Positions 53,328 through 57,709 of a stretch of DNA of 64,000 nt are shown here, one piece after another (the first letter of the stretch is position 1; each line of letters begins with the position of its first letter). A program made the translations under genes and the position numbers. The DNA is taken from positions 313,866 through 377,865 of the forward strand of contig JBDRYS010000001.1 in the NCBI GenBank assembly GCA_039803545.1. The letters are read 5' to 3'. The notes below the pieces were generated by a model. It worked only from the letters and a program-made list of their open reading frames with translations. It did not search any database and had not been told where the DNA came from. Source of the DNA: a candidate division WOR-3 bacterium. Lineage in GTDB: Bacteria > Hydrothermota > Hydrothermia > UBA1063.

Positions 53328-53401
53328 CGGGGCGTAGCGCAGCTTGGTAGCGCGCCTGGTTCGGGACCAGGAAGTCGGAGGTTCAAGTCCTCTCGCCCCG
53401 A
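53328..53401 (+). tRNA. tRNA-Pro (CGG)
   Basis: 74 nt: acceptor CGGGGCG/CGCCCCG, anticodon stem CCTGG/CCAGG with loop TTCGGGA, T loop TTCAAGT. CCA is not encoded. It starts three bases after the GGDEF gene's stop; a promoter inside that gene's end is not obvious. The 295 bp that follow hold no gene. Confidence 0.96.
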
Positions 53402-53696
53402 TGTTGTATTATTAAATCTTAGAGTGGTGCCTAAAGTTTTTTTCTCGACTAATTTGTCAAAATTTTTACGGGTACTTTCGTTAAAATAAGAGAATGTGGT
53501 GCTTTAATGACAGCGATAGCGGAGGGAGATAAAGTGTAAAAAATTTCGCAAAACTGAGCACTACTTAACCTTTTGCTTAAATATAGGCTCAAGTTTAAAA
53601 TTTACTAGTGTCTAAAAGAAGTTAAAAAGTTTTAGTGTGTTAAAAGTGGCTTATTAGTGATTATAAAGAAATCGAGTCTGGAGGGAAAATTACGAA

Positions 53697-54524
53697 ATGA
53701 GTGAGGATAAAATCTATTTCAAGGCTAAAGATATTGTCATATATAACGAAGATTTTTTGACAACTCAATCTGTTGAAGAAAGTTCTGTGGACCTAATAGT
53801 GACATCACCGCCCTACAATGTTGATATTCACTATAACTCTTTTGATGATACAATTCCTTATAGTAAATATTTGGAGTTTACAGAACTGTGGCTTGAAAAG
53901 GCTTTAAAACTTATGAAAGATGACGGGCGAATGTGCTTGAATATTCCCTTGGACAAAAACAAGGGTGGTCAGCAGAGTGTTTATGCTGATATAATTACAA
54001 TTGCCAAGAAGGTGGGGTGGAAGTACCATTCAACAATCGTATGGAATGAAGGCAATATCTCAAGAAGGACAGCATGGGGTTCATGGCTTTCCCCCTCTGC
54101 ACCCTATGTGATTGCACCGGTTGAAATGATTGCAGTTTTATATAAAAAAAGATGGAAGAAACAAGGTATGGGAGAGTCTGATATAACAAAGGAAGAGTTT
54201 ATTGAGTGGACTAATGGTATTTGGACTTTCCCTGGTGAGAGTAAGAAAAGAGTTAACCATCCAGCTCCTTTCCCTCTTGAGTTACCAAAGAGGTGTATAA
54301 AGTTGTTTACCTATGTTGGGGATACAGTTTTAGATCCATTCCTTGGGAGTGGAACTACCTTAGTTGCTTGTGCACTTTTGAATAGAAGAGGAATAGGAAT
54401 TGATATTGACAAAGGTTACTGTGAGATTGCAAAAAATAGATTAATTCAAGAAGGTAAGCTTTTGGAAAGTGTTCTCTTTGATAACACTGTATTTCGAGAC
54501 AAGCCGACTAAGTACAAAAGATGA
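53697..54524 (+). CDS. DNA methyltransferase, beta class (N4-cytosine or N6-adenine)
   Basis: 275 residues. The catalytic motif TSPPY (36-40) comes before the SAM-binding DPFLGSGT (213-220), which is the beta-class order. SPPY is most often found in N4-cytosine enzymes, though some N6-adenine enzymes share it. GSWLSPSAPYVIAPVEMI is part of the conserved centre. GGAGGG precedes the ATG at a long spacing. It overlaps the next gene by ATGA; both are visibly more A+T-rich than the surrounding genes, as expected for a transferred restriction-modification unit. Confidence 0.93.
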   Translation: MSEDKIYFKAKDIVIYNEDFLTTQSVEESSVDLIVTSPPYNVDIHYNSFDDTIPYSKYLEFTELWLEKALKLMKDDGRMCLNIPLDKNKGGQQSVYADIITIAKKVGWKYHSTIVWNEGNISRRTAWGSWLSPSAPYVIAPVEMIAVLYKKRWKKQGMGESDITKEEFIEWTNGIWTFPGESKKRVNHPAPFPLELPKRCIKLFTYVGDTVLDPFLGSGTTLVACALLNRRGIGIDIDKGYCEIAKNRLIQEGKLLESVLFDNTVFRDKPTKYKR

Positions 54525-55552
54525 AGGGCGCATTTATCTGTACACTTTCGGAAGAAGATTGGGAAAAAACGAGATTGTTGGGAATATATGGAAATAGGTT
54601 TTTTAAAGAAGGAACTTCAAATGTGCTTAAAGATACTCAGCAATTATCAATTATAAGGGATTTGATTTCTATGCGGGAGGGTGATTTGGTATTTTTTCAC
54701 ATCCGCGGTAAACAGACCATTCACGGTGTTTATGAAGTTCGAAAAACGCCATATTTCGATGACCAAGAGAGGATTTGGGATAATAAAGTTGAAGTTTTCC
54801 CCTATAGATTTTTGTTCAAGCCACATCCCAATTATGCTCACATTGCAGAATATGATGCCAATATAGAGGTACATTCCTTATATGAATTTATTGATCGAGG
54901 CATGATTCAATCTTTGGTGACTTTAGAAAATGAGCAAAATATTGAAGCAAGGGGCGTTAGGAAAATCCTGGTTGAAGACGCAAAATTAATAATTTCACTC
55001 TTGCACAGAGATTTTAAGTTTAGAAAAAATCGAGAAAAACTCGAATTTGCCCCATATAACCCTCCAAATGCCGTTAAACACCTTAAAGATTGCATATACA
55101 AAGTTGGAAATATTGAAAATGCGATAAAGGCAGTAATAATGTACATACTTGCTTACAATCCATCTCAAATATTGAACGAAATAGAAAACAAGCGGGAATT
55201 GGATTGGAAAGAGTTAGATTTTGTAAATGAGTTTTTCATAGCCCAAACTACGCGGAAATCAGTTGATATTTATGCGAGAATGAGAGATATTCATGTCTTG
55301 TTTGAGGTGAAGACTGATGTTGCCGATGAAAATGCTTTGAGACAGGCAGTATACTACAGAGATTTGCTATGGCAAAGGCCGTGGATAAACCCTGAGAAAG
55401 ATAAAATTTTTGTTGTGCTTGTCGGCCAGAGATTTCAAGAAAAACTTAAACAGTCAGTTGAGAGGCTAAAAAAGATGAATAATGGGATTCATTTACTTCA
55501 ATATAGGCCCATAAATAATGGTAAATGGGCGGATTTTAACTATGTTATTTGA
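54521..55552 (+). CDS. Putative restriction endonuclease: EVE/PUA-like domain plus PD-(D/E)XK nuclease
   Basis: 343 residues. The N-terminus (about 1-125) has the look of an EVE/PUA-like fold (REGDLVFFHIRG, IHGVYEVRKTPYFDD, EVFPYRF), a fold that reads modified bases in other proteins. The C-terminal part has SVDIYARMRDIHVLFEVKT, giving Asp249, Glu262 and Lys264 of a PD-(D/E)XK nuclease, followed by helix ALRQAVYYRDL as in DUF91/NucS-like enzymes. The neighbouring methyltransferase supports restriction. Domain calls are by eye and no activity is known. Confidence 0.7.
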   Translation: MKGAFICTLSEEDWEKTRLLGIYGNRFFKEGTSNVLKDTQQLSIIRDLISMREGDLVFFHIRGKQTIHGVYEVRKTPYFDDQERIWDNKVEVFPYRFLFKPHPNYAHIAEYDANIEVHSLYEFIDRGMIQSLVTLENEQNIEARGVRKILVEDAKLIISLLHRDFKFRKNREKLEFAPYNPPNAVKHLKDCIYKVGNIENAIKAVIMYILAYNPSQILNEIENKRELDWKELDFVNEFFIAQTTRKSVDIYARMRDIHVLFEVKTDVADENALRQAVYYRDLLWQRPWINPEKDKIFVVLVGQRFQEKLKQSVERLKKMNNGIHLLQYRPINNGKWADFNYVI

Positions 55553-55937
55553 TAGAAGAATAAAGGAACCTAATCCTCTCAGGGCGTTGGCACAAGACCC
55601 TTATGCCTTTGGTATTTGCACAAAAGAGACCGATTTCTCCGTAGAGGTTCAAGAGCTGAATGTAGAGAAGAATTATCTTATCTTGAGAAAAAGAATAGAT
55701 GGCAGTGTGGGGTATATTTGCATTTTTGAAAGAGGTTCTTTGACAATTGAAGAAATGCGTTCTATTTATGTGGAGTTTAGGAATCTTGTCCTTAGGCTTA
55801 CTAATAGCAACTTTAGGGAGGTTGAATTAGTATTGATATGCAAGCACTATGACGCAGAAGTTTTAGAATCGATTAGTGAATACAACAGAACGTATACTCA
55901 TAGAGTCCCGATAAAACTCATTTTAAATGAGTATTGA
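55542..55937 (+). CDS. Third gene of the restriction-modification island, function unknown
   Basis: 131 residues from the ATG at 55542; an in-frame ATG at 55518 would add eight residues. It overlaps the nuclease gene, so it belongs to the same operon. The sequence alternates predicted strands and helices (YLILRKRIDGSVGYICIFE, VELVLICKHYD) without a known motif. It might be a subunit or an accessory protein of the nuclease. Not recognised. Confidence 0.7.
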   Translation: MLFDRRIKEPNPLRALAQDPYAFGICTKETDFSVEVQELNVEKNYLILRKRIDGSVGYICIFERGSLTIEEMRSIYVEFRNLVLRLTNSNFREVELVLICKHYDAEVLESISEYNRTYTHRVPIKLILNEY

Positions 55938-56137: not shown

Positions 56138-57097
56138 TTACTCTTCCCCCTCTGCCTCTGCTGGTGCTAATGGGGTGAATTCTTCTTCGAAGGGTGTTAC
56201 AGCAGTATAATCGTAATCGACGATGGTTTTTGCCTTTGGGTCTATGGTGAGCACGATTTTACCTATCTGGCTCAGATAATCATAATTTCTGAGTATTATC
56301 GTGTGGTTAACTGGATCTACGTAGGCTTGTCTTTCACCGAAGCCGTCAAATCCCCCGAGTATGAGGTCAATTCCTGGGACATCTCTCGCAAGAAATCTTT
56401 CCCGGTAATATCCAATGCTGGATAACATTATCACAATATCACAGCCTTTTGCTTTAAGGGTTTCAACCGTTTTCCTTGCAGATTCGTATTCTTTTAGGAT
56501 TTTTATTGACTCATCACATTTAGATGGGTCAATGTCCTGATACATGAAGGAGGGGGTATTTTCACTGACAAGACCAAAGATACCTATTTTAATTCTCTTG
56601 TACTCGATAATGTCGTAAGGTAGGACGATGTTTGTGTATCTTGGGTCACTGAAGATTATGTTTGAGGAGACAAACTTTGCTTTTATTTTTGCTAAGTAGT
56701 CGAAAAGAGTAGCGGGTTGAGGCAAGTAATCTTCATTCCTGCTTTTTTCAGGAAATAGGATAAGCTCCCTGACGCCAATATTTATATAATCGTATTGGAG
56801 AGAATTTAAGTAATAGGCGATGGAATCGACGTACAAATTGTCTCCTGTGATATATCCACCGGTAAAGTTTCCCGCATCCATAAGAAGCAAAAGGGTCCCA
56901 CTTTTTTCGCATCTTTGCCTTTCTCTAATAAGGAGTTCCGATAGGCTTTCAAAACCTCTAAGGGTTGGCGGGAAGTCGGGGTTAATCCAGGTGGCTTTTG
57001 ATTTACCAAAGTTCCCGGCGATGTTGGAGGTATGGATAATTTCTATTTTAACGGGTTTTACTGAAAATAGTAAGCTTAATAGGAGGATTAACTTCAT
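56138..57097 (-). CDS. Secreted 5'-nucleotidase-like protein without metal ligands
   Basis: 319 residues with a short signal peptide (about 1-14). The fold is that of the calcineurin-like 5'-nucleotidase N-terminal domain: IEIIHTSNIAGNF, LLLMDAGNFTGG, INIGVREL, VIMLSSIGY and IDLILGGFDGF stand where active enzymes have HTNDxHG, DAGD, GNHE, a His and GGHSH. The metal ligands are substituted at essentially every site, so it is probably inactive and may be a binding protein. The acidic tail ends EAEGEE. It starts three bases after the PLD gene. Confidence 0.82.
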   Translation of the reverse strand: MKLILLLSLLFSVKPVKIEIIHTSNIAGNFGKSKATWINPDFPPTLRGFESLSELLIRERQRCEKSGTLLLLMDAGNFTGGYITGDNLYVDSIAYYLNSLQYDYINIGVRELILFPEKSRNEDYLPQPATLFDYLAKIKAKFVSSNIIFSDPRYTNIVLPYDIIEYKRIKIGIFGLVSENTPSFMYQDIDPSKCDESIKILKEYESARKTVETLKAKGCDIVIMLSSIGYYRERFLARDVPGIDLILGGFDGFGERQAYVDPVNHTIILRNYDYLSQIGKIVLTIDPKAKTIVDYDYTAVTPFEEEFTPLAPAEAEGEE

Positions 57098-57100
57098 TTT

Positions 57101-57661
57101 CTACTCCAGGAACCATTCGGGCATCTTTTCTGTTGAAAGCTCTTTGACTTTCTCAAAATATTTTTCAAAGTATTCGGCTACTTCAGGCGAGTAGATGAGT
57201 ACGGATGCTTCATTGTTTCTCTCCAGTGCGTAGTAGCTCCAGTTAGTTGATCCTACGATTGTTATTTTCCCGTCAACAATGATCAACTTGTCATGGGATG
57301 TTACATCGGGGGGATCAAAGTATACCTTGATGCCGCATTTGCGCAAAGTGTCCGCAAATTCTTTATTGTCAAGTGTATTGCTTCGGTTCCAATTGGAGGC
57401 ATCGAGGATGACTTCAACAGAAACTCCTCTCTGTGCAGCACTTATTAGGTCATTTAGAATCAAGGAGTTTGCATCGTTTTTGTACTGGGGGTAATACCGG
57501 GCACTAAACATAAAGATCTTAATGCTTTTTTCAGCACTCTGAAGCGCCTGGTGAAGGGCAGGTACATATTCTCTATTAGGGATTGGAATCACATCAGCGG
57601 GATAGGCATAAACTAAGTTAAATGTAAAGAGAATTGTAAAAACTACTAAAAACCTCTTCAT
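57101..57661 (-). CDS. Secreted single-HKD phospholipase D-like protein
   Basis: 186 residues with a signal peptide (about 1-19, ending VYA). One HKD motif, SHDKLIIVDGK (His123, Lys125, Asp130), is followed by GSTNWS, as in the Nuc family of small PLD nucleases, which act as dimers. Likely a periplasmic or secreted nuclease or phosphodiesterase. The ATG at 57661 follows CAAGGAGG; the frame opens with TTG one codon earlier. Forms an operon with the nucleotidase-like gene. Confidence 0.9.
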   Translation of the reverse strand: MKRFLVVFTILFTFNLVYAYPADVIPIPNREYVPALHQALQSAEKSIKIFMFSARYYPQYKNDANSLILNDLISAAQRGVSVEVILDASNWNRSNTLDNKEFADTLRKCGIKVYFDPPDVTSHDKLIIVDGKITIVGSTNWSYYALERNNEASVLIYSPEVAEYFEKYFEKVKELSTEKMPEWFLE

Positions 57662-57680
57662 CAATTACCTCCTTGATATA

Positions 57681-57709
57681 ATTATACTCTTTGAGCAGTC
57701 AACTCGCAA
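57681..57709 (-). promoter_or_regulatory. Promoter of the PLD/nucleotidase-like operon
   Basis: On the minus strand TTGCGA (57709-57704), 17 bp, TATAAT (57686-57681). The leader is short but holds AAGGAGG. Confidence 0.7.

Follow-up and report, generated by a model that had tools for sequence, protein, structure and literature searches.

Why would a bacterium of the almost uncultured phylum WOR-3/Hydrothermota, from which the accessible part of PMC12285271 describes one isolate, retain a 5'-nucleotidase homologue that has been stripped of its metal-binding residues, and why does the gene for this protein lie directly behind that of a PLD-type protein? The locus is part of a window of 64,000 nucleotides, the whole stretch of DNA that was analyzed. 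An earlier note, made from the sequence alone, had read the gene as a 5'-nucleotidase homologue that is under selection, but not for the usual chemistry, and had suggested that it encodes a nucleotide- or phosphate-binding partner of the PLD-type protein. The gene and its motifs are the following:

56138-57097, minus strand: single-domain pseudo-5'-nucleotidase with the fold of the UshA/CD73 catalytic domain; 319 aa, ATG start, hydrophobic N-terminus, no C-terminal domain
57014-57034, minus strand: HTSNIAG (residues 22-28) replacing HTNDxHG; Asp and His ligands gone
56966-56995, minus strand: ATWINPDFPP loop, common to the long enzymes of the subfamily and the short form
56867-56878, minus strand: DAGN (residues 74-77) replacing DAGD; bridging Asp gone
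56765-56776, minus strand: GVRE (residues 108-111) replacing GNHE/D; Asn ligand and catalytic His gone
56417-56419, minus strand: Ser227 where the lone-His ligand is expected
56342-56356, minus strand: GGFDG (residues 248-252) replacing GGHSH; two ligands gone

Sequence searches place this protein only loosely. Pfam assigned no family (best E 0.2), the best NCBIfam match, NF041198, reached 54.1 bits against a curated cut-off of 275, NF049981 followed with 25.2 bits against a cut-off of 140, and a sequence search of the PDB returned 2z1a at E 8.5e-12, with UshA/5'-nucleotidase kin seen weakly. The AlphaFold (AF2) model of the protein (pLDDT 88.3, pTM 0.89) leads to the same family: Foldseek retrieved 2z1a, a Thermus 5'-nucleotidase, at E 2.3e-21, and this entry is also the best solved VIA structural match (Z 33.1, rmsd 2.5 over 277 residues), with Z values of 32.8 for CD73 and 30.6 for the E. 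coli 5'-nucleotidase. By this model, the N-terminal metallophosphatase fold of UshA/CD73 is present, and the homology proposed in the earlier note is borne out by structure prediction and structural alignment. The chain ends, however, at the expected start of the C-terminal substrate-binding domain: PF02872 has no match anywhere in the window's genome, and none of the six short proteins scanned contains a 5_nucleotid_C domain. At the sensitivity used, no further UshA-like protein was found in the window's genome.

We then consider what is left of the active site. The seven dimetal ligands of UshA-type 5'-nucleotidases are Asp41, His43, Asp84, Asn116, His217, His252, and His/Gln254 (E. coli UshA numbering), and the catalytic dyad consists of His117 and Asp120. 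Alignment with relatives shows that 0/7 ligands are left in the window protein and that the dyad positions are occupied by Arg110 and Ile113, so that the catalytic dyad is absent as well. The replacements that had been pointed out earlier at each metal motif (HTSNIAG, DAGN, GVRE, Ser227, GGFDG) are all found, and the window protein is very likely a pseudoenzyme.

Is this loss a peculiarity of one genome? Proteins of this short form are carried by 39 of the 147 genomes of the phylum, as judged from open frames, and a profile built from 21 short members matches 99/147; the named relatives come mostly from WOR-3 or Hydrothermota MAGs, apart from a few that are otherwise named (e.g. L045, L066, L074). 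The same ligand losses occur in three congeners (66-81% identity) and in the remaining short relatives, which excludes a sequencing accident. Among 37 aligned short proteins, zero, one, or two of the seven ligands are kept (8, 21, and 8 proteins, respectively; the counts omit the split G016, the broken G044, and the second protein of G132): The ligand is retained in 0/37 at the D84, N116, H252, and 254 positions, while D41 is present in 24/36, H43 in 6/36, and H217 in 7/37. The dyad has fared no better, with His117 in 2/37 and Asp120 in 0/37. The nearest relatives are long UshA-like proteins with an ATFINPDFPP-type loop from WOR-3, Cloacimonadota, Neomarinimicrobiota, and Calditrichota, which have the loop in common with the window protein (ATWINPDFPP) but comprise about 500-575 aa, possess the C-terminal domain, mostly carry seven ligands, and have no adjoining PLD gene. 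All seven ligands are present in 21/30 long relatives, and three more keep five or six. One long WOR-3 clade (G079, G080, G081, G084, G093, G098) shares part of the short form's loss, with 4/7 ligands in 6/6 members and a frame that is still full-length. At the loci of this half-eroded clade (L187, L188, L189, L191, L192, L203), His43, His217, and His254 have become Glu, Gly, and Ala/Ser.

When 64 catalytic domains were placed on a tree, a single branch (support 100/99) separated all 36 short rows from the rest; this tree omits G016, G035, the second protein of G132, and G030, G034, and G036, which nearly duplicate other long rows. When the motif columns are masked and two long branches are dropped, 34 short rows still group together with support 100/99, this tree additionally omitting G076 and G142. 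The branching order within the short group is poorly resolved. Both trees give the short form a single origin.

A protein that has lost its catalytic residues might simply be a decaying relic that is held by synteny only, and one copy, that of G044, is indeed broken by stops, perhaps through a MAG error. We regard this explanation as extremely improbable: The frame is open lineage-wide, including all four genus members, and dN to the nearest congener (81% identity) is 0.129, similar to the adjoining housekeeping genes lipA (0.097) and miaB (0.088), with dS within the genus at or near saturation. Moreover, 20 columns are invariant in a profile alignment of 21 short members, among them N146, G175, D244, H265, and Y272, and the neighbors other than the PLD gene are reshuffled. 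A pseudogene reading was rejected on account of the open frames and purifying selection. Retention of the pseudo-nucleotidase by selection, as claimed in the earlier note, is supported; of the dN/dS comparison proposed there, the dN part stands close to lipA and miaB, but the saturated or nearly saturated dS leaves the omega ratios only rough. The PLD gene evolves more slowly within the genus than the pseudo-nucleotidase (dN = 0.056).

Selection could also act on an enzyme whose chemistry or metal set is a different one, assembled from the remaining D74, E179, D244, H265, and Arg256. The short form conserves E179 (30/37) and R256, which most long proteins do not; together with G252 they are the conserved residues new to it, and the long clade with 4/7 ligands indicates that the site tolerates rebuilding. 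On the other hand, nearly all residues that are conserved in the short form are also conserved in the long enzymes, and a search for a replacement site among conserved His, Asp, Glu, and Cys residues yielded no new ligand cluster, E179 being the only one of them whose conservation does not extend to the long proteins. As the dyad has been lost along with the ligands, we consider such an enzyme quite unlikely. An alternative ligand set, which the earlier note had named as a finding that would refute its reading, does not show up in residue conservation.

What, then, is a dead nucleotidase domain kept for? Attention turns to the gene that precedes it:

57101-57664, minus strand: PLD-superfamily protein with signal-peptide-like N-terminus and a single HKD; 187 aa from the listed TTG
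57242-57295, minus strand: intact HKD motif (HDKLIIVDGKITIVGSTN) of the PLD protein
57098-57100, minus strand: 3-nt gap between the PLD stop and the pseudo-nucleotidase start (TAG AAA ATG), tight coupling
57681-57709, minus strand: promoter-like TTGCGA-17-TATAAT 5' of the PLD gene; 10/12 match, only suggestive

A scan for promoters and terminators gave counts no higher than in shuffled sequence. Probably, an ATG at 57661 behind AGGAGG (window 57659-57674, minus strand) is a likelier start of the PLD gene than the TTG at 57664.

The association of the two genes is not restricted to the window: A same-strand PLD gene is next upstream of the short form in 38/38 genomes with readable upstream DNA, comprising 21/21 genome loci, 14/14 further intact loci, and the split G016, the broken G044, and the contig-cut G035; in the 39th genome, G024, the contig begins inside the gene. 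Beside the other relatives, no PLD gene was found at any of 53 loci, some of which have little upstream DNA (the 80 named loci comprise 27 short and 53 other ones; the short L049 and L083 are without upstream DNA), and the same applies to all 15 long WOR-3 loci, a set that overlaps the 53 in at least one genome and sometimes has little upstream DNA. Fifteen family codes contain the pair. The remaining neighbors vary by family, and among the loci compared none of them is found in more than three family codes, lipA being the most widespread with three. In L043, L044, and L052 the two genes even overlap in an ATGA start/stop. Some families carry two PLD genes in a row (L170-L175) or a fusion of two (L136-L138, L183); the pseudo-nucleotidase is always single. 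The strict motif HxK(x)4D(x)6GSxN is present in 46/46 PLD ORFs, including an unpaired copy in G045, and in the fused PLD protein of G076 the second half has S replacing the G of the motif. The pseudo-nucleotidase domain has become the constant associate of a PLD-type phosphodiesterase that is live and apparently secreted. The tie to the PLD-type gene that had been noticed earlier, with 3 nt between the genes, is hence stronger than a single sequence could show; beyond the earlier note, the C-terminal domain is missing, and ligand loss and PLD neighbor are conserved throughout the lineage.

The PLD protein contains a PLDc_2 domain (Pfam, E 2.9e-27), and the solved structures related to it are those of a phospholipase (1e-12), mitochondrial cardiolipin hydrolase (2.3e-9), NucT (6.5e-8), and Nuc (1.3e-7). 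A link to defense was considered, as DrmC is the nearest match in NCBIfam and PADLOC, but the protein has a signal-peptide-like start and in NCBIfam scores below the cut-offs of both NucT and DrmC. It resembles the NucT/Nuc/Zucchini branch in its HKD domain, signal peptide, and length. NucT is described, in the accessible part of its report, as a dimeric periplasmic endonuclease with the HxK(x)4D(x)6GSxN signature that is implicated in purine salvage and transformation; unlike the PLD protein studied here, it is accompanied by no pseudo-nucleotidase partner mentioned in that part (PMC5714352). By similarity only, the PLD partner may be a NucT-like endonuclease acting on single-stranded nucleic acid. 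A link to natural transformation via ComEC proved uninformative, as ComEC is present in 55/60 relatives with or without the pair.

In every copy the HKD motif is kept, in every copy the metal site is lost, and the adjacency is invariant, an asymmetry that speaks for a dead domain in the service of the live enzyme. A partnership of the pseudo-nucleotidase with the PLD enzyme is likely. As to its nature, we lean, if only slightly, toward a pseudoenzyme that derives from a UshA-type nucleotidase and regularly accompanies an exported, HKD-intact PLD phosphodiesterase, in the capacity of a structural or regulatory subunit; the chances are about even for the stricter version, a two-component exported phosphodiesterase in which a PLD-type nuclease or phospholipase has the stripped 5'-nucleotidase domain as its obligate second subunit. 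The course of events would be as follows: In an ancestor in the phylum, a UshA-type catalytic domain would have lost, once, both the dimetal site and the C-terminal domain that binds the nucleotide, and what remained would have been retained beside the exported PLD phosphodiesterase with its intact HKD motif. Both proteins would be exported and act together outside the cytoplasm, where the dead domain may place, stabilize, or restrict the PLD enzyme. For the pseudo-nucleotidase, export is suggested by a hydrophobic N-terminus that has no clear cleavage motif. Extracellular nucleic acid would be the likeliest substrate, since the PLD protein resembles the nucleases NucT and Nuc, among others. 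PLD enzymes work as dimers, and two PLD halves per partner gene would fit a PLD dimer sharing one partner. Proteins encoded in one operon need not touch each other. When both were folded as one chain (stop read as Gln; pLDDT 87.3, pTM 0.65), the domains were well formed and no confident interface appeared; with a shallow alignment and without the PLD dimer, this result says little for or against contact.

The constant pairing and order, with the enzyme gene first and its partner directly behind, would also suit an inhibitor or immunity-like protein that masks the exported PLD enzyme until it is outside or shields the cell's own envelope or nucleic acid, and so would the single pseudo-nucleotidase gene beside duplicated or fused PLD genes. 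Three observations make this function unlikely in our estimation: The acidic bias of nuclease inhibitors is absent, the short domains having no common charge pattern and a mean net charge of -3.8 versus -10 for the long domains; both proteins are apparently exported, as immunity proteins usually are not; and G045 retains a PLD gene (46% identity) in the absence of a pseudo-nucleotidase, so that the PLD protein can dispense with its partner there. The unpaired gene of G045, the lack of a charge pattern, and the broken copy in G044 count against the subunit reading as well.

The nucleotide- or phosphate-binding role put forward in the earlier note, in which the protein would hand a ligand to the PLD enzyme or take a product from it, draws on the nucleotidase ancestry of the fold and on the neighbor's resemblance to nucleases, whose products are nucleotides. 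In UshA-type enzymes, however, it is the C-terminal domain that holds the nucleotide, according to the accessible parts of two reports (PMC10454023; PMC8071527), and the lack of this domain in the window protein makes the role less likely. With the phosphate-holding metal and catalytic residues gone as well, this part of the earlier reading is not supported, and we consider it very unlikely. The pseudo-nucleotidase may bind a ligand other than nucleotide or phosphate.

With the UshA/CD73/NadN family (PF00149 plus PF02872) the window protein shares the fold of the catalytic domain (Z 30-33), a hydrophobic, signal-like N-terminus, and a weak sequence similarity that stays below cut-off; it differs in going unrecognized by Pfam and in the absence of the metal ligands, the His-Asp dyad, and the C-terminal domain. 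A search of titles and the beginnings of abstracts, mostly of open papers, found no description of a PLD/pseudo-nucleotidase pair. If the obligate-subunit reading is true, a pseudoenzyme of the UshA fold works for an enzyme of another superfamily. Pseudoenzymes are usually found singly; here, a single tree brings together one loss event, the loss of a domain, and a new gene partnership, and the long relatives together with the partly eroded long clade provide a comparison set. The pair offers a two-protein system that can be tested, in a phylum with hardly any cultured member, and naming the short-form genes 5'-nucleotidases by similarity would be wrong.

The nearest named relatives are UshA-like (seleno)proteins (NF041198/NF049981), as far as the accessible parts of PMC2398784 and PMC13188914 describe them, with the window protein far below cut-off. 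One such protein lies in G132 (L190, 1195-2316, minus strand): It carries an in-frame TGA within a C-x-x-TGA motif, lacks the metal ligands, and scores 170 bits to NF041198 and 81.8 to NF049981, both under cut-off. Judging from this motif, it is a probable selenoprotein, and the Cys/Sec motif is near the place of ATWINPDFPP in the window protein. No PLD gene was found at this locus. Since the G132 protein is also without ligands, proteins of this fold have lost them outside the PLD-linked group, too.

On the other side of the pseudo-nucleotidase gene, in the region 53328-55937 of the window, a cassette of three genes, one of them for a type II-like DNA methylase, separates a tRNA gene (53328-53401) from the 3' end of the pseudo-nucleotidase gene. 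In G002, G003, and G004 nothing occupies this spot, and in G001 it contains a DrmD/BrxH-like helicase and a type IIG-like restriction-methylase; the spot 3' of the pseudo-nucleotidase is an insertion spot for defense genes.
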